DNA from: Azorinus chamasolen
Taxonomy: Eukaryota; Mollusca; Bivalvia; Cardiida; Solecurtidae
Length of the DNA: 64,000 nt
Assembly: GCA_963576725.1 (NCBI GenBank)
Contig: OY755243.1
Coordinates: forward strand, 38,053,243-38,117,242
Direction: 5' to 3'
A program made the translations under genes and the position numbers. The notes under the pieces were generated by a model, which did not search any database, was not told where the DNA came from, and worked only from the letters and a program-made list of their open reading frames with translations. Below are positions 8,058 through 55,800 of the stretch, in pieces. Position 1 is the first letter of the stretch. Each line of letters opens with the position of its first letter.

Positions 8058-8268
8058 AAATCTGTCGTAAGCGACACATTAAAACATTTCTAATTCTGGA
8101 TCTTTTAAGCAGGTAGTGGATTAATGCAGGACAAAACTAATGCAGAAATCCCAACAGGAGCTTTCTGTATTATTTTTACTGTGCATTAAGCAAGTACCTG
8201 ATTTCTTTTTAAAGTTTCGTATGTTTAATCAGTAAGTGGTTGTCATTTAAAACAGGTTTTACTGTACA
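8058..8268. mobile_element. Family B MITE
   Basis: Core TTAATGCAGGACAAAACTAA / GTGCATTAAGCAAGTACC; right end AACAGGTTTTACTGTA. Confidence 0.55.
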
Positions 8269-9966: not shown

Positions 9967-10108
9967 ATAGAACCTGTCTTATGCAGCCAATCACTTATTG
10001 CACATAGGCGTCTTGAAAAACAAATGGTTGCTTAATGCAGGTCAAAAGTAATGTAGAAAGTGCCAAGAAATTTCTGCATTACTGTTGACCTGAATTAAGC
10101 CACTACCG
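9967..10108. mobile_element. Family B MITE
   Basis: AGAACCTGTCTTATGCAGCC start; core GGTTGCTTAATGCAGGTC / GACCTGAATTAAGCC. Confidence 0.5.
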
Positions 10109-16389: not shown

Positions 16390-16545
16390 CAGGCAGGTGG
16401 TAGCTTTATGCAGTACAAAAGTAATGCAGAAAGCTCCTAGAGGAGCTTTCTGCATTACTTTTGTCCTGCATTAAGCAACCACCTACTTATAACGACGCCC
16501 ATGTTTATTCATTAAGTGGTCGCGTTAGAGGGGTTTTACTACAGT
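16390..16545. mobile_element. Family B MITE with perfect core palindrome
   Basis: Core about 16392-16486: GCAGAAAGCTCCTAG / AGGAGCTTTCTGC with arms GGTGGTAGCTTTATGCAG and CTGCATTAAGCAACCACC. Right end GTTAGAGGGGTTTTACTACA; the left end is missing. Confidence 0.6.
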
Positions 16546-23881: not shown

Positions 23882-24090
23882 TACAGTGAAACTCCGCTAA
23901 TGCGACCACTTAATAAACAACCACTGATGTCGTTTAAAGCAGGTGGTTGCTTAATGCAGGACGAAAGTTATGCAGAAAGCTCCTATAGGAGCTTTCTGCA
24001 TAACTTTCGTCCTGCATTAAGCTACCACCTGCCTCTGCCATCCAGAATTATGCCCCTTTTTGGTGGTCGTATTAGCGGGGTTTTACTGTA
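23882..24090. mobile_element. Family B MITE, complete, near-perfect 46-bp hairpin arms
   Basis: Termini TACAGTGAAACTCCGCTAAT and GTATTAGCGGGGTTTTACTG. The core at 23940-24031 pairs almost completely, centre AAGCTCCTATAGGAGCTT. The ends resemble those of pogo/Tigger-type elements with TA targets (inference). Confidence 0.72.
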
Positions 24091-28864: not shown

Positions 28865-31800
28865 GTGAGACATTTTAATATCGTTACTTGATATTTTCAA
28901 TTGTGTTGCTGTTACACTGTTTCGTATACTCGAATAAACGTTTAATATGACAACGTGTGTATATTATTGTTATTTTAGTGAACACAAAAATGCAGTATTC
29001 TAGATATAGAAACTCTTTGTTTTGTTTTTAAAAAGGCAAGCACTTCCACCCAGTTCACAGTCAGAACTAAATTTAAATATTACCGAGTGCATTATGTACA
29101 GAACCATAGCATTATATATGCGTGTTTTAAGCTGAGTCGAAAACACATATGTTTATATTAATTTAAAACTTTACTCCATATATACGCCATATATATAATG
29201 TGTGGTATTAAGCTGAGTCGAAACACGTATGTTTATATATATTTAACAATTTACTCAATTTATATCCCTTTTAACGTTTTTGAAAACAGAGTTGACCCCA
29301 GATCAGACGACTCCTTGGTTGACATCTTCTCTGCTTACCTAGGGTATAATATAACTCTGAGTCAACAGTTTCTGCCGCGGCTCAAAGCGCATGTGTTCAC
29401 TTGCCAATATACAAAATCAGCAAACTAATATTTATAGTGTCATTATATTTAACACGAGTATTCATGGAGTACATGGTTAATAGGGAATTGTTCATGTAGT
29501 ACAGGTTTAATATTGTATTGTTCATGGAGTACATGGTTACTATTGTATTGTTCATGTAGTACAGGTTTAATATTGTATTGTTCATGGAGTACATGGTTAC
29601 TATTGTATTGTTCATGGAGTACATGGTTGATATGGTATCGTTCATGAAGTACATGGTTGATATGGTATCGTTCATGAAGTACATGGTTGATATGGTATCG
29701 TTCATGAAGTACATGGTTGATATGGTATCGTTCACGGAGTACATGGTTACTATATGGGCATTCTGTCTGACTTCTATTTACCCTGCATTAAGCAGTCACA
29801 TGCCTATAAAAGGGTATCACATCTTCACTAGTAAACGTTTGAAGTGTCGAGATTTTACTGTACTGTATTGACATGATGGTGTTTCGATTTGATCAAGCTC
29901 TCGAGAAACTATTGGCCGAGTGTCAAACGGTTTGGATCCTGATGAGACGCCGAGTGAATCTCATTTAGATGCATCTGTTTGTAATTGGGAGTCCTATCGC
30001 GGTTAGCGGGATACGGGTTATAATACAGTGAACCCTCATTATACCGGTATTCGTTACAATGGCACCCTCGTTATACCGGCAGTATGCATTGAAACAAAAT
30101 TACAGTTAAGTCTTTGAAACAACCATTATCTAAATAGGTGCAATGCCAATAAGACAGGTGATCGCTTAATGTAGAAAACAAGAAGTGCAAAAAGCTCCCA
30201 AAGGGAGCTTTTTGCACTTCTTGTGTTCTTCATTAAGCGTTCACCTGTTGGTACTAGTTTAAAACTGGCCATATGGTTCTTTTCATATTTAAACTCGTTA
30301 TAACGGCAATTTCGTTATACCAGCAAACTGTCTGGAAACAAACACCTCCGTTGTAACGAGGGTTCACAGTAATATATTTTGATAGTTATTTGTACATTTA
30401 TTCAGAAAGGGATAACAGATATAAATGGTTTATTCAACCCTTTACCCGTTGCGCTTTCATGTAAGAATGTCATGAATATTTATTAGCTGATTGTTTTGTA
30501 TAATGAGACAAGGGTTTTGATATTAATATAAGCTGTAGATTCAGATATATTATACGTACTTGCATCAGCAAACAGCACAGACAATGATCAGTTGGCTCAT
30601 GCAGGAACCTTTCGATCAAGGTCTACTCTCTTTCCAAATGTGTGAAAAGGAATTTATATGGGAGAAAGGGTTAAGCGTCACAGAACAATAGATAAAGGTG
30701 CATACTCAAATACTAAAATCGTATTTTCTCCACCAAACCCTATGTCAAGACGATTCTAAAGGGTGGTCACAACATTCGTAATGTTTAAGTGGAGAAATAA
30801 AGAAGTTATAATGTTTATAATGCTTAATGTTTTACTTGACGCTGTATTATAGAACAATGATACACATATAATACAATATACACCGAAATCCATTAAAATC
30901 ACAATCAAGCACATAATGATCCACAAAAACATCGTTAATTCTGTGACAAAACATGTTACTATATTCGCACATAAAATTTAAAACGATGCATAAAACTGCA
31001 TAAACAGCATAAGAGAATAACACGAATACATTTAAAATGAATTTACTTGAGAAATATAAACCAGTGCAGTAAAACATGTCTTGAAATTTAACAGATGTCT
31101 AAATTTGGGGGTTTAACCATTCCCTCATATTGATGCCTTTGATTCCTCAGTAAAATCAATTTTTGAAACTATTTGTGATATACTGATCATTTGCTACGCA
31201 GAAGCAAATACTCTTTTTATCACAGTGGTTTCAAAACTACAATTCTTTAATTTTCATTTTCTCTGGTAATTAATGTTCATGTTTGAATATTTATTCAAAG
31301 AGGTTGGGTCTAAAAATAGCCAATTATGGAATGGGTTAAGGCATTTTTTTGCATTATTTTCTACCTGTATGAAGTCACCGTCTGCTCTTAACTGTTTGAA
31401 TGCTGACATTTCAAATTGGAATGCTCCACCGTTGTTTAATGATAGTGTCTATTCATACGAAAGGGTATGCAACTTTTTGAATTACAAACATTGCAGACCC
31501 TAGTAGAGGATTTCTCTGTAATCTGGGGTACATAGTTTGCAAATGTCATTTCTCGCACTCAAGGGATTGAGACTGTTTTATCAATAAATGATCGCTCAAG
31601 TTTCGTTCTCTTTTAAAGAATAGGGCATCATAAATATCACACTGTAACATATATGTTGTGATTATTGTCTAGTATGGATCCATTTTGTTTGCAAATACTA
31701 GTGAATTTGCGATCGACAGGGAAATGGTTAATATATCTGTTACTCTCCTGATTGGCTTTCTTCACAGGTTACTATCCATTTTAAACAGAGTTTCCCTTGT

Positions 31801-34800
31801 GCGTCTTTCTTCACAGATCACTCTTCTGTTTATCATTTTCATAGGTTACTGTTCTGATTGTCTTTCTTCACATATTACTCTCCTGGTTGTCTTTTTCACA
31901 GATGCCTTTCTTGGTTGTCTGGTTTCACATGTTACGCTCCTGGTTATCCTTCTTCACAAATTACTGTCCTGGTTTTCGTTTACACAAATTACTCTCAATT
32001 ACTCTCCAGGTTGACCTTCTTCGCAAAGTACTCTCCTGATTGTTTTTTTCATATAGTACTTTCTTTGTTGTCTATCTTCACATAGCACTGTTCTGATTGT
32101 CTTTTGTTTTACATGTTACTCTCATCATTGTCTTTCTTTTTTCACATATTCATCTCTTGTTTGTCTAGTTTCACATATTGCCCTCCCGGGTGTCTTTCTT
32201 TACATATCACTCTCCATGTTGTCTTTCTTCAAATATTACCCTCCTGGATATCGATTTTCACAGATTACTCTCCTGGTTGTCATGTTAACAGATTACTCTC
32301 CTGGTTGTCATGTTAACAGATTACTCTCCTGATTGTTTTTCTTCACAGTTTACTCTCCTGGTTGTCTTTATAGCAGGTTACTCTCCTGGATGTCTTTTAT
32401 CACTTATTTCTCTCTTGTTTGTCTTTTTCACAGATTACCCTCCCTTTTTTACAGATTTCTTTCTTGTTTGTCGTTTTCATAGATTAATATCCTGGTTGTT
32501 ATTGATCACAGATTACCATCCTTCGCATGTCGCCTTTCTTCAGAGATTACTGTCTTGATTGTCCTTTTTCACAGATTACTATCTATGTTGTCCCTTTTTC
32601 ACATATTACTATTCATGTTGTCCCCACCGGTTGTCTTTTTTACAAACAAACTCCTGCTTGTCTTATTTCATATATAACTTTCCTTTTATCACTAATTACT
32701 CTTCATGTTGACCTTCTACACATATCACTGTCCATGATGTTTCCTTTTTTATAACTTTCGTGATTGTTTTTTTCACAGGTTATTCTCCTGGTTGCGGTGC
32801 TCGTGCTTGTGGTATGCCAGGCAAGCAAGGTAATGCTTTTTCGGTTTGATTTGATTTAGTTAAGCAACGATATACATATACATACAATCTTATTGCGACA
32901 ATAGATTACATGAAATAAGGACATTATAAAGTGTATAAGAGATACGACTGCATATATAATTATATGTCTTCATGGGTATCTTTAATGCAGTAAAAATAAT
33001 GCAAACAGTATAGATGAATTTCAATGTATTTAGATGAATTGCAATGTATTTAGATGAATTTCAATGTATTTATATATTTGTTTGCAATGGATAATTTCCT
33101 TTGAATGTTATGATATACGTGCATACAAGTGATATGGTCGATAAAAATGCCATGTTTTAGCTGTAATTAAGAAAAATAAAATAATACAATAAAACACATA
33201 TCCATTACACTACACTACACTGCACTGTACTACATTCAACTACAATGCACTGCACGGCAGTACACTACACTACGCGCCACGCCACACTGCACCGCACACC
33301 ACCACACACCACCGCACTGTACTGCACTGCAAATATACTGCACTGTACTACACTGCACTGCATCGTAACACAAAACAACACGACACGAGATGCTAAAAGA
33401 TATGACACGGCACGATACAATACAATGCAATGCAGTGCAATGCAAGACAATGCAGTAGAATGCAATAAGCACAGTACAATAAGAAAATATATTGTCTAGT
33501 AACACATGCAGTGCGCACTGTGTACATGTATAGATAGCTCAAAAAGTAACTTATCTTACTTCTTTTCTACAAGCAAGTATGCTTAGCTTGTATGTATTGG
33601 TGTGGGTTGGCATGGACTGTGTTATAAGTGATATCTGACATGTTTTCATGATCTACTATCTAGTGTAAGTCACGGGTTGTGTTATAAGTAGTCTGTCAAT
33701 TGCGTTCTTCAACCACTATCTGTTACATCATGAAAACAGCCTTGGGCCTGGCATACCTACTTTAACCCTATGCCTAATGAAACTATATTCAAGTATCTAT
33801 CACCTCGGGATTATATACAGACCGTATTTTTACGATGGTCCCTAAACAAGGGAAGCTTTGGTCACACCGGAAACATTAGGATCATTTCTATATAGTTCCA
33901 CAAGCGAACAGAACAGACCCTGGCATCTTTAATGCATCTCTATGAGACAAAGTGCTATATTTAGCCTGATCGGGCTAAGTTACGATGCTCCTTGCAATCA
34001 GACTGGATCAATTGTTGTTAGATAAATTGGACATACAGTAAAACCTGTCTTAAGCGACCGTTAAAACTAGGTATACATTTCGGTCTTTACCACAGGTGGT
34101 AGCTTAATGCAAGTCGGAAATTATACCGAAAGCTCTGTTACAACCACTTTTGCAATAATAACCAGAATTGCAATAAATTTATTGCGAAACTGGTTGGGAT
34201 GTAAAATGGGTCCAAATTCGTATTGCAATTACTTGACAACCACTTTTGCAATAAAAACCAGAATTGCAATAAATTTTTCTAGATTTAAGAATTAGGTTAC
34301 CGTTGCATTTCGGGTAGTTGCTAGTAGTTGCAAACAACTTTACATGACATGCCCGGACGAAAACAAAGCCCAAATGGGCTTATCAGTAAATTAGGAAAAC
34401 AACCATTTATCAGTGTTTTCTCTTTTTAAACACTGGATGGGTTGATAGACTAGTCAATTATATGATTGTTTGTTTTGAAAGTTGTTGAACTTTACTTTTT
34501 AAAGCTAATTCGGATAATATGGAAGCCTAATGGGCTTATCTGCCAACCATGAACTTGCCAAAAACTACCTGTTCTGAACTTAATATATAATTGAAATTTG
34601 ACAGTAATGATAACAATGAAGACCAATTTGCCATAGTCTACTAGATCAGATACCTTTTCAAGAATTACAAAATGTTTATTGCGAAACTGGTTGAGATGTA
34701 AAAAGTGTCTAAATTCGTATTGCAATTACTTGACAACCACTTTTGCAATAAAAACCAGAATTGCAATAAACTTTTCTACATTGGAGAAATGAGTTATTCG

Positions 34801-37800
34801 TGCTTTGGCAACAGTTGTAAACATAGGCGAACATCTCAAATGGACACACCCAAATGCCAACAAAGCCTAAATGGGCTTATCAGCACATTATGAAACCAAC
34901 CTTATATCGTCTCTTTCTGTTTGAACATTGGGGATTGACAGCGTAGTCCCAACCACCTTTGCAATAAATTTATTGCAAAACTGGTTGGGATGTAAAATGG
35001 GTCCAAATTCGTAGTGCAATTACTTGACAACCAGTTTTGCAATAAAAACCAGAATTGCAATAAACTTTTTCTGGATGAAACGAAGAAGTGATTGTTGCAT
35101 TTTGGGTAGTTGCTAATAGTTGCAAACATCTTAAATGGACATACTCGGATGGAATTAAAGCCCAAATGGGTTTATCAGTAAACTAGAAAAACAATCATTT
35201 ATCAGTGTTTTCTCTGTTTGAACATCGGCTGGATTGATAAATTAGTCGATTATAGGATTATATGTTTCAAAGGTAGTTGCAAACATCTTTTTAAAGCTAA
35301 TTCGGATAATATGGAAGCCTAATAGCCTTATCAGTCGTCTATGACATTGGCCCAAAACTACCTGTTCTGAACTTACATGTTCGAAAATTGACAGGAATGA
35401 TAACAATGTAGACGAGTTTGCCATAGTCTGCAAGATCAGACCCCTTTTCAAGAATTGCAAAATGTTTATTGCGAAACTGGTTGGGATGTAAAAAGTGACA
35501 TAATTTGTATTGCAATTATTTGACAACCAGTTTCGCAATAAAAACCAGAATTGCAATAAACTTTTCTACATTGGAGAAATGAGTTATTCATGTATCGGCG
35601 GCAGTTGTTAACAGACGCGAACATCTCAAATGGACACATCGCAATGCCAACAAAGCCTAAATGGGCTTATCAGCACATTATGAAACCAACCTTATATCGT
35701 CTCTTTCTGTTTGAACATTTGGGATTGACAGCGTAGTCCCAACCACTTTTGCAATAAATTTATTGCAAAACTGGTTGGGATGTAAAATGGGTCCAAATTC
35801 GTATTGCAATTACTTGACAACCACTTTTGCAATAAAAACCAGAATTGCAATAAACTTTTCTACATTGGAGAAATGAGTTATTCATGTATCGGCGGCAGTT
35901 GTTAACAGACGCGAACATCTCAAATGGATACACCGCAATGCCAACAAAGCCTAAATGGGCTTATCAGCACATTATGAAACCAACCTTATATCGTCTCTTT
36001 CTGTTTGAACATTGGGGATTGACAGCGTAGTCCCAACCACTTTTGCAATAAATTTATTGCAAAACTGGTTGGGATGTAAAATGGGTCCAAATTCGTATTG
36101 CAATTACTTGACAACCACTTTTGCAATAAAAACCAGAATTGCAATAAACTTTTCTACATTGGAGAAATGAGTTGTTCATGTATCGGCGGCAGTTGTTAAC
36201 AGACGCGAACATCTCAAATGGATACACCGCAATGCCAACAAAGCCTAAATGGGCTTATCAGCACATTATGAAACCAACCTTATATCGTCTCTTTCTGTTT
36301 GAACATTGGGGATTGACAGCGTAGTCCCAACCACTTTTATTGCAAAACTGGTTGGGATGTAAAATGGGTCCAAATTCGTATTGCAATTATTTGACAACCA
36401 CTTTTGCAATAAAAACCAGAATTTCAATAAACTTTTCTACATAGGAGAAATGAGTTATTCATGTATCGGCGGCAGTTGTTAACAGACGCGAACATCTCAA
36501 ATGGACACATCGCAATGCCAACAAAGCCTAAATGGGCTTATCAGTACATTATGAAACCAACCTTATATCGTCTCTTTCTGTTTGAACATTGGGGATTGAC
36601 AGCGTAGTCCCAACCACTTTTGCAATAAATTTATTGCAAAACTGGTTGGGATGTAAAATTGGTCCAAATTCGTATTGCAATTACTTGACAACCAGTTTTG
36701 CAATAAAAACCAGAATTGCAATAAACTTTTTCTGGATGAAACAAAGAAGTGACTGTTGCATTTCGGGTAGTTGCTAATGGTTGCAAACATCTTAATAGGA
36801 CATATCCGGATGCAATTAAAGCCCAAATGGGCTTATCAATAAACTAGAAAACCAATCATTTATCAGTGTTTTCTCTGTTTGAACATCGGCTGGATTGATA
36901 AATTAGTCGATTATAGGATTATTTGTTTCAAAGGTAGTTGCAAACATCTTTTTAAAGCTAATTCGGATAATGTGGAAGTCTAATAGGCTTATCAGTCATC
37001 TATGACATTGGCCAAAAAGTACCTGTTCTGAACTTACATGTTCGAAATTTGACAGGAATAATAACAATGAAGACGAGTTTGCCATAGTCTGCTAGATCAG
37101 ACACCTTTTCAAGAATTACAAAATGTTTATTGCGAAACTGGTTGGGATGTAAAAAGTTATATAATTTGTATTGCAATTGTTCGACAACCAGTTTCGCAAT
37201 AAAACCCAGAATTGCAATAAACTTTTCTTCATTGGAGAAATGAGTTATTCGTGCTTTGGCAACAGTTGTAAACATAGGCGAACATCTCAAATGGACACAC
37301 CCAAATGCCAACAAAGCCTAAATGGGCTTATCAGCACATTATGAAACCAACCTTATATCGTCTCTTTCTGTTTGAACATTGGGGATTGACAGCGTAGTCC
37401 CAACCACTTTTGCAATAAATTTATTGCGAAACTGGTTGAGATGTAAAAAGTGTCTAAATTCGTACTGCAATTACTTGACAACCAGTTTTGCAATAAAAAC
37501 CAGAATTGCAATAAAAACTATGTTCTATAGAAAACTGGCCTCCCCTGGGGTGGGCTTTATTTCGTAGCATGACTTGACTGAAATTAGCACACAGTTTGGA
37601 TTCTGATCTGACGCATACCTGTATGTTACTTCATATGTGGTTTGTACATAAGTTAATTGTAAGATTGATATGCATTAACCCTTTCCTCCATAAAACGCCT
37701 TTCTACGCCTCTGTAACAGCCACTTTATGAAACCATTGTGATAAATAGAGCATTTGCTCCATATGAGTAAATGCTCTATTTATCACAATGGTTTCAAATC

Positions 37801-40800
37801 TACGCAATTCTGAAATTTTCCGTTTCTCTAATTCATGCTCCTTATCAGTAGATTTATTCAAAGAGGTAGGATCTGAAAATAGTCTATGAGGGAATGGGTT
37901 AAAAACAGTGTGAATAAACAGACACTAATTCTGAAGCAGACAACTGTATAGAGTTTTGACCAGGAAATTGACCTCTCCAGTGATTGCATAACACAGACTG
38001 AGTAGCTGGAGTCCTTCTGGCTCAGTGGAACCTTTATAGTGTAATAGTCTATTTTAAAGTATAACAAACAGGGAAGGGCCAATTTTAACCTCAGAACTAT
38101 GATAATAACAAATTTCTATAAGGTATATTAGGTAAATCTATACACCAAATATCTAAGCTCTGTGACATGTAGTTTTTGACAAGAAGATACTTAAAGTTTT
38201 CCCCATGCTACTTGTACAGAATAACAGTCAGCTAGAGAAAACTGGCCACCCCTGGGACCGTTGCGGGGCCAATTTTGACTCCAGGGACATAATTTATATA
38301 ATTTTTGTAGAGGACCGATAGGTGATGCTATGTGCTAAAGATGAAAGCTGAGAACCCTGTAGATTCAGAGGAGAAGACTTTTAAAGGTTCAAATTGTTGA
38401 CGACGCACGGCGCACGACACACACCGCACGACGCACAACAAACGCCGACAGACGACGGACACCAGGCGATCACAAAAGCTCACCCTGAGCACTTTGTGCT
38501 CTGGTGAGCTAAAAATGCGAACATCTTGATAGGACACATCCGAATGCCAACAAAGTCTAAATGGGCTTATCAGCCAATTACGTAATCAACCGTATATAAT
38601 GTTTTTCTGTGTTGAGGATTCGCTGGTCGTTAGTATGTTTGGTAGCTTCTTCATTTGCAAATATCTTATGATAACAAAACCTAGAATAGGTTATCAACAC
38701 AAACCGGAACTGACCAAATGTGATCATTTACATATTTGCCCATTATTATCTCAATGAAGACAATATTCCAAAAAAGGAATTAATATAATATATAAATACT
38801 TGAATACTTGAATGATTACTTTAATTATTACAAGAAAAAGTCAGTTTGTATGGAAGTTACAAAGTGAAATAGTGCATGCAAATTGTAACTAATATAAGCA
38901 TTGAAATTATATTATTATACCATTAATACACTTAAACAATGTATGTTAACACTCTTTGAAAAATAACGACTTTGAACCCTTTCCTGCATAAATGCGCCTT
39001 TCTCCGCATTTACAAACAGAGTAGAATTAGATCAGATAGCTCTCGTGGGGGCCATCTGATCAGGGTCTGTTCTGTTTGCTTATGGAATGAAATATATATG
39101 ATTCTATAGTTCCTACAGTTTAATATGCCATTGTTAAAATTAATCTAATTATTATTCATGATGCCATTATTTCTTACATAAATATTCACTGAGTTAAGGA
39201 TAAACACGATCATTTCGGAATAGATTGAAAACAGTTTTATGACTGACTAGAGTTCACACTGTTGACCGTACACCGTGCTTTTGTTACATTTATATACATG
39301 TAAATAATAATGATATCCTGAATAATAATTATATTAATTTTATACGGATACATTAACACAGATTTTGGGCATAGCAAATACTCTGGAATCAGATCTATAT
39401 TATAACATAAATATATGCCAAATATTAAAGCTGGAAATCTGCCAGTTTCAGAGAAGATTTTCAAAGTTTTCACTATATGTTTCTATAGATAACAAGGCCC
39501 CCTGGGGTGGGACCAATTTTGACCCCAGGGACATAATTTATATACCTTTTGTAGAGGACTTAACTATGATGGTAAGTGCCAAATATGAAACCTGACAACC
39601 CTGTATATTCAGAGGAGAAGATTTTTAAATGTTCAAATTGTTGACGACTGACGGCACACGACGGACACCGCACGACGCAAGCTGACGGAGAATGGAAACC
39701 AAGCGATCACAAAAGCTCACCCTGAGCACGTTCTGGTGAGCTAAAATGGATGTTATTGCGACACACTCGTGTTTTTCTGATAAGGCTATTAATTTTTCAT
39801 ATTATCCGAATTAGCTTTAAAAAAGACCTTAGATCCAGCTTTTTTAAATATAGAAAACATTGAAATACATTTGTTGGAGTGGTGGTCCAGTGGTAGGAGG
39901 TTAGACTTGGGATCGGAGGGTCCCCGGTTCGAATCTTGCCATCGGGCTATCATATATTTTCTGAACAATAAATGCATCCCACGATTAATACTCTCCACCC
40001 AGGTGTATAAATGGGTTCCTGTGAGGGAAATAAGCTGCATTGGGCGCTGAATGTTAATGGCCGACATATAACCCAGTGCTAAGGGGTAAATTGTGAAGTC
40101 GGGAGAATATGTACATGTATATAGTTCATAACATTACACCTCACTTTTACCTTTACATGTACATGTATATAGTTGGTTTCCAAAAGTTACTTATAAGATT
40201 TATCCTACTACCAGGTTTGCAACTATTAGCAAGTATCCGAAATGCAACAGTAACTTCTTTGTTTCATCCAGAAAAGTTTATTGCAATTCTGTTTTTTATT
40301 GCAAAACTGGTTGTCAAGTAATTGCAGTACGAATATGGACCCATTTTACATCTCAACCAGTTTCGCAATAAATTTATTGCAAAAGTGGTTGGGACTACGC
40401 TGTCAATCCCCAATGTTCAAACAGAAAGAGACGATATAAGGTTGGTTTCATAATGTGCTGATAAGCCCATTTAGGCTTTGTTGGCATTGCGATGTGTCCA
40501 TTTGAGATGTTCGCGTCTGTTAACAACTGCCGCGGATACATGAATAACTCATTTCTCCAATGTAGAAAAGTTTATTGCAATTCTGGTTTTTATTGCAAAA
40601 GTGGTTGTCAAGTAATTGCAATACGAATTTGGACCCATTTTACATCCCAACCAGTTTTGCAATAAATTTATTGCAAAAGTGGTTGGGACTACGCTGTCAA
40701 TCCCCAATGTTCAAACAGAAAGAGACGATATAAGGTTGGTTTCATAATGTGCTGATAAGCCCATTTAGGCTTTGTTGGCATTGCGATGTGTCCATTTGAG

Positions 40801-43800
40801 ATGTTCGCGTCTGTTAACAACTGCCGCGGATACATGAATAACTCATTTCTCCAATGTAGAAAAGTTTATTGCAATTCTGGTTTTTATTGCAAAAGTGGTT
40901 GTCAAGTAATTGCAATACGAATTTGGACCCATTTTACATCCCAACCAGTTTTGCAATAAATTTATTGCAAAAGTGGTTGGGACTACGCTGTCAATCCCCA
41001 ATGTTCAAACAGAAAGAGACGATATAAGGTTGGTTTCATAATGTGCTGATAAGCCCATTTAGGCTTTGTTGGCATTGCGGTGTATCCATTTGAGATGTTC
41101 GCGTCTGTTAACAACTGCCGCCGATACATGAATAACTCATTTCTCCAATGTAGAAAAGTTTATTGCAATTCTGGTTTGTATTGCAAAAGTGGTTGTCAAG
41201 TAATTGCAATACGAATTTGGACCCATTTTACATCCCAACCAGTTTTGCAATAAATTTATTGCAAAAGTGGTTGGGACTACGCTGTCAATCCCCAATGTTC
41301 AAACAGAAAGAGACGATATAAGGTTGGTTTCATAATGTGCTGATAAGCCCATTTAGGCTTTGTTGGCATTGCGATGTATCCATTTGAGATGTTCGCGTCT
41401 GTTAACAACTGCCGCCGATACATGAATAACTCATTTCTCCAATGTAGAAAAGTTTATTGCAATTCTGGTTTGTATTGCAAAAGTGGTTGTCAAGTAATTG
41501 CAATACGAATTTGGACCCATTTTACATCCCAACCAGTTTTGCAATAAATTTATTGCAAAAGTGGTTGGGACTACGCTGTCAATCCCCAATGTTCAAACAG
41601 AAAGAGACGATATAAGGTTGGTTTCATAATGTGCTGATAAGCCCATTTAGGCTTTGTTGGAATTGCGGTGTATCCATTTGAGATGTTCGCGTCTGTTAAC
41701 AACTGCCGCCGAGACATGAATAACTCATTTCTCCTATGTAGAAAAGTTTATTGCAATTCTGGTTTTTATTGCAAAAGTGGTTGTCAAGTAATTGCAATAC
41801 GAATTTGGACCCATTTTACATCCCAACCAGTTTTGCAATAAATTTATTGCAAAAGTGGTTGGGACTACGCTGTCAATCCCCAATGTTCAAACAGAAAGAG
41901 ACGATATAAGGTTGGTTTCATAATGTGCTGATAAGCCCATTTAGGCTTTGTTGGCATTGCGATGTGTCCATTTGAGATGTTCGCGTCTGTTAACAACTGC
42001 CGCCGATACATGAATAACTCATTTCTCCAATGTAGAAAAGTTTATTGCAATTCTGGTTTGTATTGCAAAAGTGGTTGTCAAGTAATTGCAATACGAATTT
42101 GGACCCATTTTACATCCCAACCAGTTTTGCAATAAATTTATTGCAAAAGTGGTTGGGACTACGCTGTCAATCCCCAATGTTCAAACAGAAAGAGACGATA
42201 TAAGGTTGGTTTCATAATGTGCTGATAAGCCCATTTAGGCTTTGTTGGAATTGCGGTGTATCCATTTGAGATGTTCGCGTCTGTTAACAACTGCCGCCGA
42301 GACATGAATAACTCATTTCTCCTATGTAGAAAAGTTTATTGCAATTCTGGTTTTTATTGCAAAAGTGGTTGTCAAGTAATTGCAATACGAATTTGGACCC
42401 ATTTTACATCCCAACCAGTTTTGCAATAAATTTATTGCAAAAGTGGTTGGGACTACGCTGTCAATCCCAAATGTTAAACAGAAAGAGACGATATAAGGTT
42501 GGTTTCATAATGTGCTGATAAGCCCATTTAGGCTTCGGTGGCATTTGGATGTGTCCATTTGAGATGTTCCCACCTGTTTACAACTGCCGCCGATACATGA
42601 ATAACTCATTTCTCCAATGTAGAAAAGTTTATTGCAATTCTGGTTTTTATTGCGAAACTGGTTGTCAAATAATTGCAATACAAATTATGTCACTTTTTAC
42701 ATCCCAACCAGTTTCGCAATAAACATTTTGCAATTCTTGAAAAGGGGTCTGATCTTGCAGACTATGGCAAACGCGTCTACATTGTTATCATTCCTGTCAA
42801 TTTTCGAACATGTAAGTTCAGAACAGGTAGTTTTGGGCCAATGTCATAGATGACTGATAAGGCTATTAGGCTTCCATATTATCCGAATTAGCTTTAAAAA
42901 GATGTTTGCAACTACCTTTGAAACAAATAATCTATAATCGACTAATTTATCAATCCAGCCGATGTTCAAACAGAGAAAACACTGATAAATGATTGGTTTT
43001 CTAGTTTACTGATAAGCCCATTTGGGCTTTAATTCCATCCGAGTATGTCCTATTAAGATGTTTGCAACTATTAGCAACTACCCAAAATGCAACAATCACT
43101 TCTTCGTTTCATCCAGAAAATGTTTATTGCAATTCTGGTTTTTATTGCAAAACTGGTTGTCAAGTAATTGCAATACGAATTTGGACCCATTTTACATCCC
43201 AACCAGTTTTGCAATAAATTTATTGCAAAAGTGGTTGGGACTACGCTGTCAATCCCCAATGTTCAAACAGAAAGAGACGATATAAGGTTGGTTTCATAAT
43301 GTGCTGATAAGCCCATTTAGGCTTTGTTGGCATTGCGATGTGTCCATTTGAGATGTTCGCGTCTGTTAACAACTGCCGCGGATACATGAATAACTCATTT
43401 CTCCAATGTAGAAAAGTTTATTGCAATTCTGGTTTTTATTGCAAAAGTGGTTGTCAAGTAATTGCAATACGAATTTGGACCCATTTTACATCCCAACCAG
43501 TTTTGCAATAAATTTATTGCAAAAGTGGTTGGGACTACGCTGTCAATCCCCAATGTTCAAACAGAAAGAGACGATATAAGGTTGGTTTCATAATGTGCTG
43601 ATAAGCCCATTTAGGCTTTGTTGGCATTGCGATGTGTCCATTTGAGATGTTCGCGTCTGTTAACAACTGCCGCGGATACATGAATAACTCATTTCTCCAA
43701 TGTAGAAAAGTTTATTGCAATTCTGGTTTTTATTGCAAAAGTGGTTGTCAAGTAATTGCAATACGAATTTGGACCCATTTTACATCCCAACCAGTTTTGC

Positions 43801-46800
43801 AATAAATTTATTGCAAAAGTGGTTGGGACTACGCTGTCAATCCCCAATGTTCAAACAGAAAGAGACGATATAAGGTTGGTTTCATAATGTGCTGATAAGC
43901 CCATTTAGGCTTTGTTGGCATTGCGGTGTATCCATTTGAGATGTTCGCGTCTGTTAACAACTGCCGCCGATACATGAATAACTCATTTCTCCAATGTAGA
44001 AAAGTTTATTGCAATTCTGGTTTTTATTGCAAAAGTGGTTGTCAAGTAATTGCAATACGAATTTGGACCCATTTTACATCCCAACCAGTTTTGCAATAAA
44101 TTTATTGCAAAAGTGGTTGGGACTACGCTGTCAATCCCCAATGTTCAAACAGAAAGAGACGATATAAGGTTGGTTTCATAATGTGCTGATAAGCCCATTT
44201 AGGCTTTGTTGGCATTGCGATGTGTCCATTTGAGATGTTCGCGTCTGTTAACAACTGCCGCCGATACATGAATAATTCATTTCTCCAATGTAGAAAAGTT
44301 TATTGCAATTCTGGTTTGTATTGCAAAAGTGGTTGTCAAGTAATTGCAATACGAATTTGGACCCATTTTACATCCCAACCAGTTTTGCAATAAATTTATT
44401 GCAAAAGTGGTTGGGACTACGCTGTCAATCCCCAATGTTCAAACAGAAAGAGACGATATAAGGTTGGTTTCATAATGTGCTGATAAGCCCATTTAGGCTT
44501 TGTTGGCATTGCGGTGTATCCATTTGAGATGTTCGCGTCTGTTAACAACTGCCGCCGAGACATGAATAACTCATTTCTCCAATGTAGAAAAGTTTATTGC
44601 AATTCTGGTTTTTATTGCAAAAGTGGTTGTCAAGTAATTGCAATACGAATTTGGACCCATTTTACATCCCAACCAGTTTTGCAATAAATTTATTGCAAAA
44701 GTGGTTGGGACTACGCTGTCAATCCCAAATGTTAAACAGAAACAGACGATATAAGGTTGGTTTCATAATGTGCTGATAAGCCCATTTAGGCTTCGGTGGC
44801 ATTTGGATGTGTCCATTTGAGATGTTCCCACCTGTTTACAACTGCCGCCGATACATGAATAACTCATTTCTCCAATGTAGAAAAGTTTATTGCAATTCTG
44901 GTTTTTATTGCGAAACTGGTTGTCAAATAATTGCAATACAAATTATGTCACTTTTTACATCCCAACCAGTTTCGCAATAAACATTTTGCAATTCTTGAAA
45001 AGGGGTCTGATCTTGCAGACTATGGCAAACGCGTCTACATTGTTATCATTCCTGTCAATTTTCGAACATGTAAGTTCAGAACAGGTAGTTTTGGGCCAAT
45101 GTCATAGATGACTGATAAGGCTATTAGGCTTCCATATTATCCGAATTAGCTTTAAAAAGATGTTTGCAACTACCTTTGAAACAAATAATCCTATAATCGA
45201 CTAATTTATCAATCCAGCCGATGTTCAAACAGAGAAAACACTGATAAATGATTGGTTTTCTAGTTTACTGATAAGCCCATTTGGGCTTTAATTCCATCCG
45301 AGTATGTCCTATTAAGATGTTTGCAACTATTAACAACTACCCAAAATGCAACAATCACTTCTTCGTTTCATCCAGAAAATGTTTATTGCAATTCTGGTTT
45401 TTATTGCAAAACTGGTTGTCAAGTAATTGCAATACGAATTTGGACCCATTTTACATCCCAACCAGTTTTGCAATAAATTTATTGCAAAAGTGGTTGGGAC
45501 TACGCTGTCAATCCCCAATGTTCAAACAGAAAGAGACGATATAAGGTTGGTTTCATAATGTGCTGATAAGCCCATTTAGGCTTTGTTGGCATTTGGGTGT
45601 GTCCATTTGAGATGTTCGCCTATGTTTACAACTGTTGCCAAAGCACGAATAACTCATTTCTCCAATGTAGAAAAGTTTATTGCAATTCTGGTTTTTATTG
45701 CAAAAGTGGTTGTCAAGTAATTGCAATACGAATTTAGACGCTTTTTACATCTCAACCATCTTCGCAATAAACATTTTGTAATTCTTGAAAAGGTGTCTGA
45801 TCTAGTAGACTATGGCAAATTGGTCTTCATTGTTATCATTACTGTCAAATTTCAATTATATATTAAGTTCAGAACAGGTAGTTTTTGGCAAGTTCATGGT
45901 TGGCAGATAAGCCCATTAGGCTTCCATATTATCCGAATTAGCTTTAAAAAGTAAAGTTCAACAACTTTCAAAACAAACAATCATATAATTGACTAGTCTA
46001 TCAACCCATCCAGTGTTTAAAAAGAGAAAACACTGATATATGGTTGTTTTCCTAATTTACTGATAAGCCCATTTGGGCTTTGTTTTCGTCCGGGCATGTC
46101 ATGTAAAGTTGTTTGCAACTACCCGAAATGCAACGGTAACCTAATTCTTAAATCTAGAAAAATTTATTGCAATTCTGGTTTTTATTGCAAAAGTGGTTGT
46201 CAAGTAATTGCAATACGAATTTGGACCCATTTTACATCCCAACCAGTTTCGCAATAAATTTATTGCAATTCTGGTTATTATTGCAAAAGTGGTTGTAACA
46301 AAGCTCATATTGGAAATTTCTGCATTACTTTTGCCCTGCATTGAATAACCATCTAGATTTTAAAATGTCTAAGTCCAATTAGTAAATGGTCGCTCTATCC
46401 TTTCCTTCATATAAATGATTTTTTTCGCATTTCCAAACAGAATTCTACATATGTCATTATAAAACATTAGCTAATAAATATTCATGACGTTAGTATTTCT
46501 TACATAAATATTCGACAGTGAAATAGTTAAGACAGGCTCTTACTGTACTTCGTATTTGGCAAAATATGTTTTCCGTAAATAGATGCAAACAAATACTGAA
46601 CAAGCTAAAGGTTACGGGTGATATAAAAGTTATCCTAACAATAACCCAACAATTGCGACTTTTAACAATTCCAACATATGTTACTTTTGTAATTACATGA
46701 TATGGAAATGCCCAGTGCAATAATTGCTCCCACAATACACGTGGCAATATGACACTCCTACACACAGACTGTGTTCGAAATACATTGTGTTCTGTAGTAT

Positions 46801-49800: not shown

Positions 49801-52800
49801 CTGTTTGCAAATGCATAAAATCGTTTATCCTGTCACGTGCCTATTTTCCTGACGGATAACAAGGTGCCTCATAACCTTTTTGTTATTATGCCAGTTGGTC
49901 ACATGATCGATGTTATGTCAGTTGGTCACATGACCTGTAGCCGAAACTACTTTTTTTTACCGAGACGTTTATTTCGTGAATACACAAATTTACGTCTACC
50001 GAGTACTAGATCTACTGAATAAAAAAAGTTTTTGTTGATTTCAATCGATACCCATTAAACTAAATAGATCTAATTCTTTCACTTCATTCTCCGAAACTTA
50101 GGCCCTAGCATATTCTAGACTAGATCTAGTAGATCTAGATCTAAACTAGATCTAGTTGTTTGTCGCGAAATTACCATGTTTAGATAAAATCCACATCAAG
50201 AATCATAAATCGTCTAGATATCGTCAAGTGACAGGTTCTTTTTCTCACATAACCAACCGGGGCAACGGTTTTGTTTTGAGCATTTTTTTTAAAGCAATGT
50301 GACATTTTGGAATTCCAGTGACGTAATAACGCCTTTATAGTGACGTCATCAACAGTCTAGAGCCAGTAGAGTCGGGTATACTTTGCGGTGCATTTTGTGG
50401 TACATTCGGTACAAAATAATTATATGTTGCTGTCGTGACAAGGATAAATAGAATATTTGGTTCCTAGCTTTGAATGAGAAATATTATCTGGCTCGGCTTC
50501 TGAATATATCAGGTTCGCCTTCGGCTCACCTGATAGCATGGTCTTACCATCTATCGAACCTCTTAACCTTTGACCAGGAACAAAAAATGTTTACTGTGAA
50601 TATTGAAGAAAAAAATAAATCAGCAGTTCAAAATAATCTTTTATACATACCCTGAAACAATTAAATATTTTTATCCTCATCTATTAATCCCCAAACAATC
50701 CAGTGTTCCCCACCACCCGCATAACAAAAACAAAAATGGCTGCCAGAAAAACCTCACCTGCCTATCGAACCTCTATTTTAGAAACTGTTTACTGTAAAAT
50801 AATACTCATAGTCACGTTATTTCATCATGGGCACGCGACCTTTGCATAAGCTGAAGGGGTCAGAGCTGTCAAACATTTTAAATGTGGTACACTTTTCAAT
50901 TCACGTTGATATTCTATAACGTAGTAAGAGTTTTCTCATGTTTAGCATAGTTGAACGGAAATAAACTGTTTTGACCTGTTTATGACATATATTTCGTTTT
51001 TAAAGCTACGAGGCGTTGTTTACAGACAAAGCAACGGTACTCATGGTTTTATGACGTAGTGTGCACTTCTACATGCGTAAAAACACCAAAAAATGAAAGG
51101 TTCGATAAACAGGTGAGGTTCGATAGAAGGTGAGTGTACGATATATTCATCCGCCTTGCCAGATAACATTTCTCATTCAAAGCTAGGAACCAAATATTCT
51201 CTATTTATATGTAGGAAAGGTTAAGCGGCCAGCAACATGAGGTATATATATTAAAACTATTTTAGCGGTTATTTATTTTTAGCTCGTCTGTTTTGAAGAA
51301 AAATCGAGCTATTGTGATCACTGGGTCGTAGGCGTTGTCGAACTTGTCGTCGTTGTTGTCGTCGTCGTCGGCGTGCAAAACCTTTAATGTAGATAATTCC
51401 TCGGAAAGTATAAGAGCTATCATCATGAAACTTCATAGGTTAGTAGATCTCATTGAGGGGAAGGCCCCTACATAAGCTTGGTTTCAAAATTTGGAGTTAT
51501 GGCCCTTTTTGTTTTTCAAAGATGCTTAATTTAGCTGGACAAACACCAAGTAAGACGAGCGTTGGCGTTGTTTGAACATAGGAGTCTTAAAAAGCACATG
51601 GTTGCTTAAGGCAGGGCAAAAGTAATGCAAAAAGTTTTCTGCATTACTTGTTACTTGCATTAAAGTACCACCTGCCTTTAAGACCAAAGATTAGACCTTG
51701 TTTCACTGGCCGCTGAAGACATGTTCTACTGTGTCTCTATCTGGTATATGGATCAAAACAAGTAGTAACAACATGTGGTTGATTGATTAATTGCTTGCAC
51801 GGGCTTTTATATATATATGTATGTGTACACATTTGCCAACTAAGTAAAACCAGATCGTCCACTCCTGGTATGATTCAACAGTTCCATTGCAATCGTAACA
51901 CTTTTATAATGTAATGATTTCGTACATGAGGCAAATGGTTCAAGACTCAGACTCTCTACGTCTTCAAACAGATTATATCCAAATCAGACGGCTGATCGTG
52001 ATCTGATCTGTTTGCCTATGATATAGACAGCTGATTGTGATCTGATCTGTTTGCCTATGATATAGACAGCTGATATCGTGGTCTGATCTGTTTGCCTATG
52101 ATATAGACAGCTGATCGTGATCTGATCTGTTTGCCTATGATATAGACAGCTGATCGTGATCTAACCTGTTTGCCTATGATATAGACAGCTGATCGTGATC
52201 TGATCTATTTGCCTATGATATAGACAACTGGTCGTCATCTGAACTGTTTGCCTATGATGTAGACACGATTTTACAGAGTGACATGGCCAAACATTTTTGT
52301 GTCCATATGGAATTATAACAATTAATCTCAGTAACATTCATAGTGTCCTTATTTCTTACCCAATATTCACGGATTAACCTTTCCTCCATAAATACGAAAA
52401 TAGGAGCAAATGCTCTATTTATCAATACAATACAAACTTTATTTAGAGTCGGTGCATATATAACAATGTAACATTAGCTATGTATAGCTATTTACCGACA
52501 TTACATCACAGTAACAACTTATGACATACAAACAAACACAAGAACAATACAGACACATATACAATCAATTAAAATGACAGATCATATAAGATTCAGAATT
52601 ACAATTACAAAACACGCAACTGATTCCCATTTTTAGGAAACAGGTACATGTACTGCCTATGGTTAAACGAGAATATAGAGTTAAACATTATGTTTAGAGT
52701 GCATCAATTACACATAAGGCCTTAAAATTATATGTTAAAAAAGTGTATCTTACATAAATGCGTACAGGTCAGGTTTCAGATCAGATGTCGAGAGATTTGA

Positions 52801-55800
52801 CATCCGATCAGGATCCAGCCTGGAGGCTGTAAATCAATTCACTTAAAAAATAAAACTTTATTTAAAAGTACAAAAATGAGTCATGCAGGAAATACCACAT
52901 ACAGAACAAACACTCGCCCGAACAGCAACACAAGGAAACAGCAAATGTACATGGGTAGAAAAAACAACAAGAGACGCACAAAGACAAAACAAACATTCAA
53001 TAGGAGGAAGATGGAAGTACCGCCTTGGAACGGTCAGTGACAAAAGTCACCGGGGGTTTAAACCGGTTTATGGGCGCCCAACCTCACCCTTATTCCATCC
53101 CCATCCTAAAAGACAAACAGTGTAAATAAACGTATCCCCTCTCCGACTAATCTACAACAACCGCGACAGCAAATACAGTGGTAAAGTGCATGTATAACAA
53201 AAAAACATTTAATTGAACATACTGTATCCACCTATCGCTAGTGTACTCAATGATTGAGCTGCAAACAGAGTAACTGTAGAAAAGTAATAAAGGGTACGAC
53301 AAAAATGAAATAGTACAGATATCCGACGTTCTCCTTCCATTTCTGGATTTAAGAGGTCGCCTTAAGTCCGTACTTAATATTAAGTATAATCTCCGACGTA
53401 CAAGCAAACTTAAAACAATACATACACTTATATTTTATGATCAATTAAAATATCAGAATGTTTAAATTTTAGAAGTGCATTTACAATGGTTTACACACAC
53501 TTGATTTTCATTTTTAGGAATCAAGTATATGTATTACCTATAATCAGTAAGAGAACATTTAAAAGTATATTTAGAGAGAGAAAGTAAAAAAAATAGCATA
53601 CATACATGTATCACTTAATGCATACAAATTAAATTTTAATGTTACTGACGTGCATCTTGCATCTATGCATTCAGGTTGGGTTCAGATTGGATGTCAATAT
53701 ACTTGGCAGCCAATCATAATCCAGCCTGGAGGCTGTAAAAGTTATACAGAGCGAATCTGTCTGGAATTTTGCTGATCTTGACTTAAGTCTAAGACTATGT
53801 TTAGATTTACAATAAGGACTGAATAGTAAAAAGCATAATATTGCGACTGCTTATATCACAATGGTTTTAAACTAAAATTCTAAAAGTTTACTTTTCTCTA
53901 GTAAAGGCTCCTTTTGGGTAGAATCATCCAAAGAGGTTGGGTCTAAAAATAGCCCATGGGGAAAAGAGTCAAAGTGTTAAAGTAGCCGTTACAGAGATGT
54001 TTTAATTGAAATATATCATCTATAAAGTCCACTGTCTTTAACATTTACCCTAACGTAAAAAGAATTCTCGCTTTGCCTTTTCTTTGTTAAGTAATGTCAC
54101 AATGAATATATATTACCTGAACGTTTATGCATGTAGTGGCATATGTGTACATGCATTTTGGTATTGATAGAAATCTATCATAATTTCAAAGCAAACAGAG
54201 CCACAGTAGAACCTGTCATAAGCGTCCATCAGTTTACTGAACATAGGAGTATTAAAATCAGTTGTTGGGGCAAAATTAATGCAGCACGCTTTTTGAATGC
54301 CTTTTGACATGCATTAATCTGCCACCTGCCTAACAGAATCTTAATTAAATCTATTTTGACCGCTTAAGACAGACTCTACTTTACTTTGTTTACAAAGGCG
54401 TGAAAGTATGTTTATATGATGGAAAGGCCTGTCCCGGTCGGGAAGATGCAACCCGACAGATGCATTTTCTTATGATATATTCTGGTTTTATAACCATTTG
54501 TTATGGTGGCTTCTTGAATACAGTATTTGTTACTCGTTTTTAAATATTGTATTATATTCCAAAAACGATGTTTGCTAAGCCTTGTTAAAAATTATATAGC
54601 ATTCCGTTTGTTCCTTATTTCGCCAGGCGTATCACCAGACGAGAAGGAATACATCCTGAAAGAGCACATGCGCATTCGCCGAGAAGTGGACCCACCGGCA
54701 ACGAACATGCGTGAAATTGTATGTATTTGAAAGAGGGCACTGTTTTATGTGTAACGTGTAATAAAAAAAGATTCAAGCTGTCCTTTGTCTTAGCAGGCAA
54801 ATAGTCAATCTGTTCTCTGCCTTAGCAGGCAAATAGTCAAGCTGTCCCCTGTCTTAGCAGGCAAAGAGTCGTCAAGCTGTCCTCTGTTTTAGCAGGCAAA
54901 TAGTCAAGCTGTCCTCTGTCTTAGCAGGCAAAAAGTCAAGCTGTCCTCTGTCTTAGCAGGCAAATAGTCAAGCTGTCCTCTGTCTTAGCAGACAAATAGG
55001 CAAGCTGTCCTCTGTCTTAGCAGTCACATAGTCACACTGTCCTCTGTCTTAGCAGGCAAATAGTCAAGCTGTCCCCTGTCTTAGCAGGCAAATAGACAAG
55101 CTGGCCCCTGTCTTAGCAGGCAAATATTCAAGCTATCCTCTGTCTTAACAGACAAAGAGTCAAGCTGTCCTCTGTCTTAGCAGGCAAATAGTCAAGCTGT
55201 CCCATGTCTTAGCAGGCAAAAAGTCAAGCTGTCCTGTATTAGCAGGGAAATAGTCAAGCTGTCCTCTGTCTTAGCAGGAAATAGTCAAGCTGTCCTCTGT
55301 TTTAGCAAGCAAATAGTCAAAGCTATGCTCTGTCTTAGTAGGCAAAGAGTCAAGCTGTCCTCTGTCTTAGCAGGCAAATAGTCAAGCTGTCCTCTGTCTT
55401 GTTTTGATAATCCCTCCTTTGTACACATATGCGAACACAGTAGACTAAAATATCTCTGTAGAAGCTATCTGATCAGGGTCTGCTCTGTCTGTGGTTTTAT
55501 GTTACAGATCGGAATGGATACCGTTTTGCCATCACAATATGTTTCCTTGCATTCTTTTCTATTTTGATACAAGATATACCGCTGTGTAATATAATGTCTG
55601 CTTGAATTTGGATCTGTTAAGATTAGGTACAATTTATCGAGTGTTAATATTGTTCTAAAATGTATATATGAGCAATTTTATTAAATATTTTTAACAAGTA
55701 TTGTTCTATATTCGAAGAGTATTGTTCTATATATATTGGTCTATATATGAGGAGTGCTGTTCTATAGATATACATGTACATTGGGGCATTGTTCTATGTA

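Follow-up and report, generated by a model that had tools for sequence, protein, structure and literature searches.

In a 64,000-nucleotide stretch of the Azorinus chamasolen genome (the window: NCBI GenBank assembly GCA_963576725.1, contig OY755243.1, positions 38,053,243 to 38,117,242), the inverted, satellite-like array at 34136..46300 belongs to a young mobile family with scattered copies and is no ordinary satellite. This follows from its fixed inverted ends, from target-site duplications, and from uninterrupted copies of the surrounding repeat in which AAGCTC is present only once. Chance is set aside because the same arrangement is replicated genome-wide, with independent duplications. 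The family very probably consists of non-autonomous, cut-and-paste DNA transposons of foldback architecture. A preliminary description of the window had proposed that the array behaves as a single inserted unit, and the recurrence of the same ends with independent duplications across the genome bears this out.

Checked base by base, the element is a complete foldback of 12,165 base pairs (bp). The left junction at 34136 reads ...CCGAAAGCTC in the flank and TGTTACAACCACTTTTGCAATAATAACC in the element; the right junction, where the element ends at 46300, reads ...GGTTATTATTGCAAAAGTGGTTGTAACA and then AAGCTCATATT. The element starts with TGTTAC and ends with GTAACA, and its right end is the exact inverse of TGTTACAACCACTTTTGCAATAATAACC. 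AAGCTC lies on both flanks, the match being exactly 6 bp with an unlike seventh base; the ends, duplication and inverted arms described earlier are thus exact at the base level. The parts of the insertion are as follows (window positions).

34093..34135, no strand: left part of an interrupted older palindromic interspersed repeat, from alignment to other repeat copies
34130..34135, no strand: left target-site duplication AAGCTC, from flank reading and paralogous empty sites
34136..34182, plus strand: left 47-bp terminus, with TGTTAC, direct 17-bp motifs at 34142 and 34160, and an inverted motif starting at 34179
34136..37517, plus strand: left arm, a core/spacer array with spacer order B A B A A A A B A
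35465..36730, plus strand: 294-bp tandem run in the left arm (core 102, spacer A 174, and joints)
37518..38510, no strand: inner block of about 1.0 kb with interspersed-repeat pieces
38511..40210, plus strand: conserved non-coding 1.7-kb centre, with diverged unit remnants at 38511-38726 (plus), 39754-39840 (minus) and 40197-40270 (minus)
40197..46300, minus strand: right arm, an inverted core/spacer array with 294-bp tandem runs at 40270-42723 and 43115-44981 and one spacer B between them
46254..46300, minus strand: right 47-bp terminus, inverse of the left terminus
46301..46306, no strand: right target-site duplication AAGCTC, from flank reading
46307..46354, no strand: right part of the interrupted palindromic repeat, from alignment to other repeat copies

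The arms are unequal, 3.4 kb on the left and 6.1 kb on the right, with 2.7 kb of central sequence between them (to 40196). Their outer 1389 bp are complementary at 98%, and over the first 2763 bp of the left arm identity to the right arm is 96.0% (83 mismatches, nine gap openings). Each is built of a 102-bp core alternating with either a 174-bp spacer A, giving the 294-bp unit, or a 393-bp spacer B, to whose first half spacer A is homologous. The 294-bp units of the preliminary description therefore stand, and its “790-bp composite” can be refined to core, 393-bp spacer B, core and 174-bp spacer A, with joints. In the window, nhmmer matches to the units are confined to 34136-46301, barring three core matches, weak or incomplete, that extend past its limits (34078-34157, 34112-34179 and 46279-46334).

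In the host assembly, which comprises 137 contigs and 1,723,440,353 bases, the 28-base terminus is matched exactly at 177 places (91 forward, 86 reverse); a reversed control is matched at none. The terminus listing used below covers 100 of these 177 places, and each DNA similarity search scored its best 40 candidates; loci are labelled L and contigs C. Among the 100 listed termini, 66 form 33 inward-facing pairs spanning 95 bp to 21,263 bp, so that two-ended copies, for which the preliminary description had suggested searching with the terminal bases, are indeed present. Within 35 kb the listed exact termini make no outward-facing pair and one same-way pair; a shorter, 23-base tip reveals one outward neighbour, at L031. 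At L047 (C5:96860613 and 96865912), two termini of the same orientation lie 5.3 kb apart around one centre, with no reverse terminus in the stretch read. The core pattern has no matches in collections of viral contigs and of genome contigs.

Flanks were read for 40 copies: the 33 listed pairs, four further pairs, and L074, L077 and L087, whose second end is altered or short. The 6-bp duplication is exact in 32 of them (27 of 34 in the main set, plus L074, L077, two copies on C10 and L043/44); the right tip of L077 has one change, and its duplication is exact. Two more (L057/58 and L087) have duplications with one mismatch. The set is biased toward intact tips, since copies were mostly chosen by the exact 28-mer. 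Within the 27 exact duplications of the main set, C occupies position 4 in all, G position 3 in 25, T position 5 in 21 and A position 2 in 16: the target preference is for a palindromic AGCT core. At 36% GC, the probability of GC in 25 of 27 targets is about 2e-35. Several insertions sit near the centres of palindromic repeats, and a preference for local inverted repeats was for this reason tested and rejected (27 sites against 196 motif-matched window sites, p = 0.30; L045, whose left flank is too short, was scored 0).

Empty sites give a second view of the insertion; those available here are paralogous, not allelic. When the window flanks are joined with a single AAGCTC, they align without gaps to uninterrupted repeat copies at 23941-24031 and 16394-16485. 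Two other repeat copies (8123-8200 and L034:1-73) keep AAGCTC and have gaps elsewhere. Gap-free paralogous sites were also found for the copies at L046 and L034. Together with the exact duplications, these single-AAGCTC sites confirm the 6-bp duplication proposed earlier. The interrupted palindromic interspersed repeat (AGAAAGCTCCTATAGGAGCTTTCT type) itself occurs in the window at 8123-8200, 16394-16485, 23941-24031 and 60313-60404.

Another way to account for the structure would be an ordinary satellite array, inverted through rearrangement or misassembly, whose ends are alike by chance. The 294-bp tandem units are satellite-like, as this would predict, and one locus offers it some encouragement: at L029, together with L078 and L079 (C9, about 67164-67172 kb), a near-perfect palindrome of about 8 kb is centred on a short family copy and takes in about 1.96 kb of flank per side at 99.9%, with an abrupt edge. 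This palindrome may be either a real inverted duplication or an assembly foldback. On the other side are the 33 inward-facing pairs of fixed ends among 100 listed places, the 32 exact duplications among 40 copies in unlike flanks with their paralogous empty sites, and the distribution of the units themselves. The listed matches to the 294-bp unit (from the best 40 of 768 candidates) fall into 22 clusters. Inverted terminus pairs enclose 17 of these, and two lie beside one exact terminus; two more adjoin a centre match beyond the listed termini (C13:67.84 and C12:51.3), and one (C1:89.88 Mb), about 31 kb from a terminus, was not placed. No plain free array was recognised among these 22 clusters, so the units are not found only as plain tandem arrays, the outcome named in the preliminary description as telling against mobility. 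Inversion of an ordinary satellite is hardly credible on this evidence.

Most of the long loci read share a common plan of tip, core/spacer units, centre, inverted units and tip, and the long copies with two ends carry between two and 20 cores in each arm. The inner block varies from about 795 to 1550 bp in other copies and is nearly absent from L033 and L037. In 11 copies the centre measures 900 bp or more, a length that leaves out L033, L036, L037, L043 and L044; in pairwise comparison these 11 centres are 98.6-99.9% identical. A 1241-bp centre query gave 40 scored matches (best 40 of 9787 candidates), all of full length and at least 98% identical. The two results together mean that the family's movement is recent, as the preliminary description had suggested from the window's near-identical arms. 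Nineteen of these 40 matches lie on C1-C9: 15 between exact inverted termini, three beside an exact terminus and one beside none. This last match, at C5:8627474, does have arms. There is also an older subfamily (L033, L037, L043/44 and L077), with centres about 91-94% alike. None of the 11 centres has a stop-free stretch of more than 114 codons, in keeping with the earlier remark that no transposase frame is present. Part of the common centre (39880-39960) resembles by eye the A and B boxes of a transfer RNA (tRNA)-derived short interspersed nuclear element; ARAGORN and Rfam were silent there, and tRNA and Rfam scans of the whole window gave no matches.

Some observations pull the other way and must be set against a mobile foldback family. 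Six of the 40 copies (L017/18, L029, L031, L033, L035 and L055/56) lack a duplication, and two of the uninterrupted repeat copies (51587-51732 and 9987-10107) are gapped at or next to the junction. At L031 (C9:60149297) the end of the copy is followed, after 2 bp, by a second tip that faces outward, so that two ends stand back to back. No second end was seen for the single ends L071, L073, L075, L076 and L086 in the stretches fetched. L029, L030 and L031 have no centre, and the centres of L033, L036, L037, L043 and L044 are partial and 90.7-97.6% identical to that of the window. Finally, no transposase was found, which leaves the superfamily, and the binding role proposed below for the 17-bp motif, as inferences.

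Two of the copies without duplications, L017/18 and L033, have differing NNGCNN hexamers at their two ends. Such hexamers are what recombination between copies would leave, suggesting that chromosomes may have been rearranged there.

The arms are dominated by a 17-bp motif, AACCA[CG][AT][AT]T[TC]GCAATAA, which occurs 102 times inside the element (42 on one strand, 60 on the other) and nowhere in the rest of the window. At the tip, TGTTAC is followed directly by this motif, then by a direct repeat of it 18 bp further and by an inverted copy; the terminal 47-48 bp are identical across many copies. Since the tip consists of TGTTAC plus the motif found throughout the arms, the simplest reading of the arms is as arrays of binding sites, a role that we propose for the motif by analogy with Galileo. 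A transposase encoded elsewhere would recognise the motif, cut at TGTTAC and join the ends to the target with a 6-bp stagger at NNGCTN. The arms would then be arrays of about 100 putative transposase-binding sites, grown, presumably, by tandem duplication and unequal exchange; long arms might aid synapsis or capture of the transposase without being required in cis.

The smallest members of the family suggest what is needed in cis. L038 (C8:29388805-29388899) is 95 bp long and consists of two 47-bp tips, the same as the ends of the window element, around one base, with duplication AAGCTG. L074 (C2:94858286-94858381) is 96 bp long, with a right tip of 19 bp and duplication TAGCAT. As both carry exact duplications, the tips would seem to suffice in cis and long arms to be dispensable; L074 further suggests that about 19 bp of tip can suffice on one side, unless the mini-elements shrank after insertion. 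L072 (C10:15101966), with 48 bp of a single tip between copies of AAGCTT, probably records an excision that was then repaired in part, a reading drawn from one site.

How the arms evolve can be approached through spacer A. Among 193 units, its identity averages 97.1% between neighbours, 95.4% within the same arm, 95.6% with the other arm and 94.7% with other copies. The best match of a unit is in the same arm for 98 (including ties), in the other arm for 35 and only in another copy for 60, a pattern that fits local tandem duplication on top of a common recent origin. The terminal 500 bp of 46 ends average 90.3% identity within a copy and 90.0% between copies; values are low where unit order differs right behind the tip. 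In the window copy the two terminal 500-bp pieces are 99.8% alike, and 19 foreign arms match the left arm better still (its partner ranks 20 of 45), so that arm-to-arm correction, offered earlier alongside recent movement as an explanation, is not needed for this copy. It is dispensable as a general explanation too, and possible in some copies: the partner arm is the sole best match in seven of 23 (L027, L029, L030, L033, L035, L036 and L045), ties for best in four and is beaten in 12.

Which enzyme, then, moves the family? An autonomous relative with TGTTAC ends, the existence of which the preliminary description had left to be checked, was looked for and none was found. Two large copies with foreign DNA held no partner; their frames are, by eye, like those of long interspersed nuclear elements (LINEs) or simple repeats and are read as nested insertions. 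L071, L073, L075, L076, L077, L086 and L087 also held no autonomous partner; LINE-type, reverse-transcriptase-like frames were seen by eye at L075:1387-3336, in the same stretch as a truncated arm. The first 23 tip bases with another continuation occur at two sites, again with no partner. The first 14 bases with a different base 24 occur at 17 sites, several of which are variants of the family; the reversed control has 43, and none of the 17 is paired. A partner may nevertheless have been missed, since about 26 of the 32 unpaired listed termini were seen as a place or as about 1.5 kb only, and 100 of the 177 places were listed.

One possibility, which we favour tentatively and hold to be less than even, is that the family is a foldback member of IS3EU/GingerRoot, moved by an IS3-like or Ginger-like DDE transposase. 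What is said here of published systems draws on the excerpts of the cited papers that were available. IS3EU and GingerRoot make 6-bp duplications, and GingerRoot ends are mostly TA..TA and occasionally TG..CA (PMC10045372); the 6-bp duplication is shared by the present family, whose TG..CA ends correspond to the rarer GingerRoot form. Complete IS3EU families, in contrast, always have TA..TA ends, the elements described are coding and autonomous, and the excerpts mention neither a foldback form nor an AGCT preference (PMC10045372). Frames matching rve_3 are present in this genome (73 matches among the best 150 of 1336 candidates). Many are longer than 1100 amino acids, as retroelement polyproteins would give, and others are shorter; among the 40 listed on C1-C10, none comes closer than 27.1 kb to a listed exact terminus, a point somewhat against this reading.

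A further possibility, which we consider unlikely, is a superfamily not yet described and visible so far only through this non-autonomous family. We know of no superfamily in which TGTTAC tips go together with a 6-bp duplication centred on AGCT, and the absence of any paired site with the first 14 bases and a different base 24 is as this explanation would have it; the same absence would, however, result if a partner from a known superfamily had diverged, degenerated or been lost. A bolder version, marginally easier to entertain but still doubtful, is that a superfamily either undescribed or not known in foldback form targets AGCT and has driven its passengers to become arrays of 4-20 kb with about 100 of its own sites. 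Satellite-like DNA in this animal would then be favoured because it acts as a sponge for the transposase, and would be neither a centromeric nor a neutral array, the nearest relatives by ends being IS3EU/GingerRoot.

By structure the family belongs with the foldback elements: it has long inverted arms of tandem subrepeats, target duplications and dispersed copies, and arms of variable length. The classical foldbacks FB of Drosophila melanogaster and TU of sea urchin, compared here by description, likewise have tandem subrepeats in inverted arms; their subrepeats are much shorter and their duplications are 9 and 8 bp. Galileo makes a 7-bp duplication, and the P superfamily 7-8 bp. The 6-bp duplication of the present family falls outside both this range and the 8-10 bp of Mutator foldbacks of the Tetris type. 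Ginger1 and Ginger2 have TGTNR ends and duplications of 4-5 bp; the ends here fit TGTNR, but the 6-bp duplication led us to reject them.

A Mutator-type foldback such as Tetris, or a P-type one such as Galileo, would have the same long arms with internal tandem repeats, the variable non-coding middle and the miniature sharing only its tips (PMC4079207, PMC3688188). The arms of Tetris, from Drosophila virilis and ascribed to Mutator, have internal tandem repeats of about 220 bp; Tetris has no autonomous partner found so far, shares its tips with the miniature DAIBAM, and has foldback arms linked to satellite-like arrays (PMC4079207). The foldback-like arms of Galileo also contain internal tandem repeats, and these hold further binding sites for the THAP domain of its transposase (PMC3688188), the role proposed for the repeats here. 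For Galileo, however, a P-type transposase is known; the comparison with it here is by description. Tetris duplications are 8-10 bp and three copies are structurally complete (PMC4079207), whereas the present family has a 6-bp AGCT-type duplication, exact in 32 of 40 copies, as well as two alternating spacers and a conserved centre. Tetris repeats have, in addition, been amplified into longer satellite-like arrays (PMC4079207), whereas no free arrays are among the matches listed here. Because the duplication matches neither Tetris nor Galileo, and the TGT..ACA ends fit neither foldback type, membership in Mutator or P seems improbable. Tetris is nonetheless the best comparison found. The superfamily is left open: the nearest by duplication length is IS3EU/GingerRoot, Tetris (Mutator) has 8-10 bp, and the enzyme was not found.

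Two other kinds of element were considered and rejected. Dada inserts in multicopy small RNA genes, and its U6 and U1 elements lack terminal inverted repeats (PMC3706591); the window has no tRNA or Rfam match, and the flanks of the present copies are varied, with NNGCTN targets. Helitrons and Helentrons make no target duplication, and one is present here. The oyster Helentrons Pearl and HINE resemble the present family in being bivalve mobile elements with satellite-like tandem repeats; they differ in having no duplication and in the place of the repeats, which are flanked by two modules whose subterminal inverted repeats are short and do not form long inverted arms (PMC7492417).

The family itself was not found described. 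What makes it novel within the foldback kind is a 6-bp duplication of AGCT type together with the large number of clean copies. No mollusc foldback family appears in the titles or abstract beginnings of the literature matches listed, a search with subscription journals, Repbase and Dfam outside its scope, and excerpts of three oyster papers use the word foldback solely when referring to Tetris.

A single genome here holds dozens of near-identical copies that share a centre and differ widely in their arms, together with 95-bp derivatives, and this wealth of copies allows some basic questions to be put. How do satellite-like arms grow in a moving element, and do they help or hinder its transposition? 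At what rate do arms recombine between copies, as may have happened at L033 and L017/18, or form palindromes, as at L029? There is also a caution for annotation: where an assembly shows an inverted satellite array, a transposon may be the explanation. The window has in addition three unrelated minisatellites, at 54773-55400 (32 bp x 19.6), 29461-29753 (30 bp x 9.8) and 51986-52265 (39 bp x 7.1).

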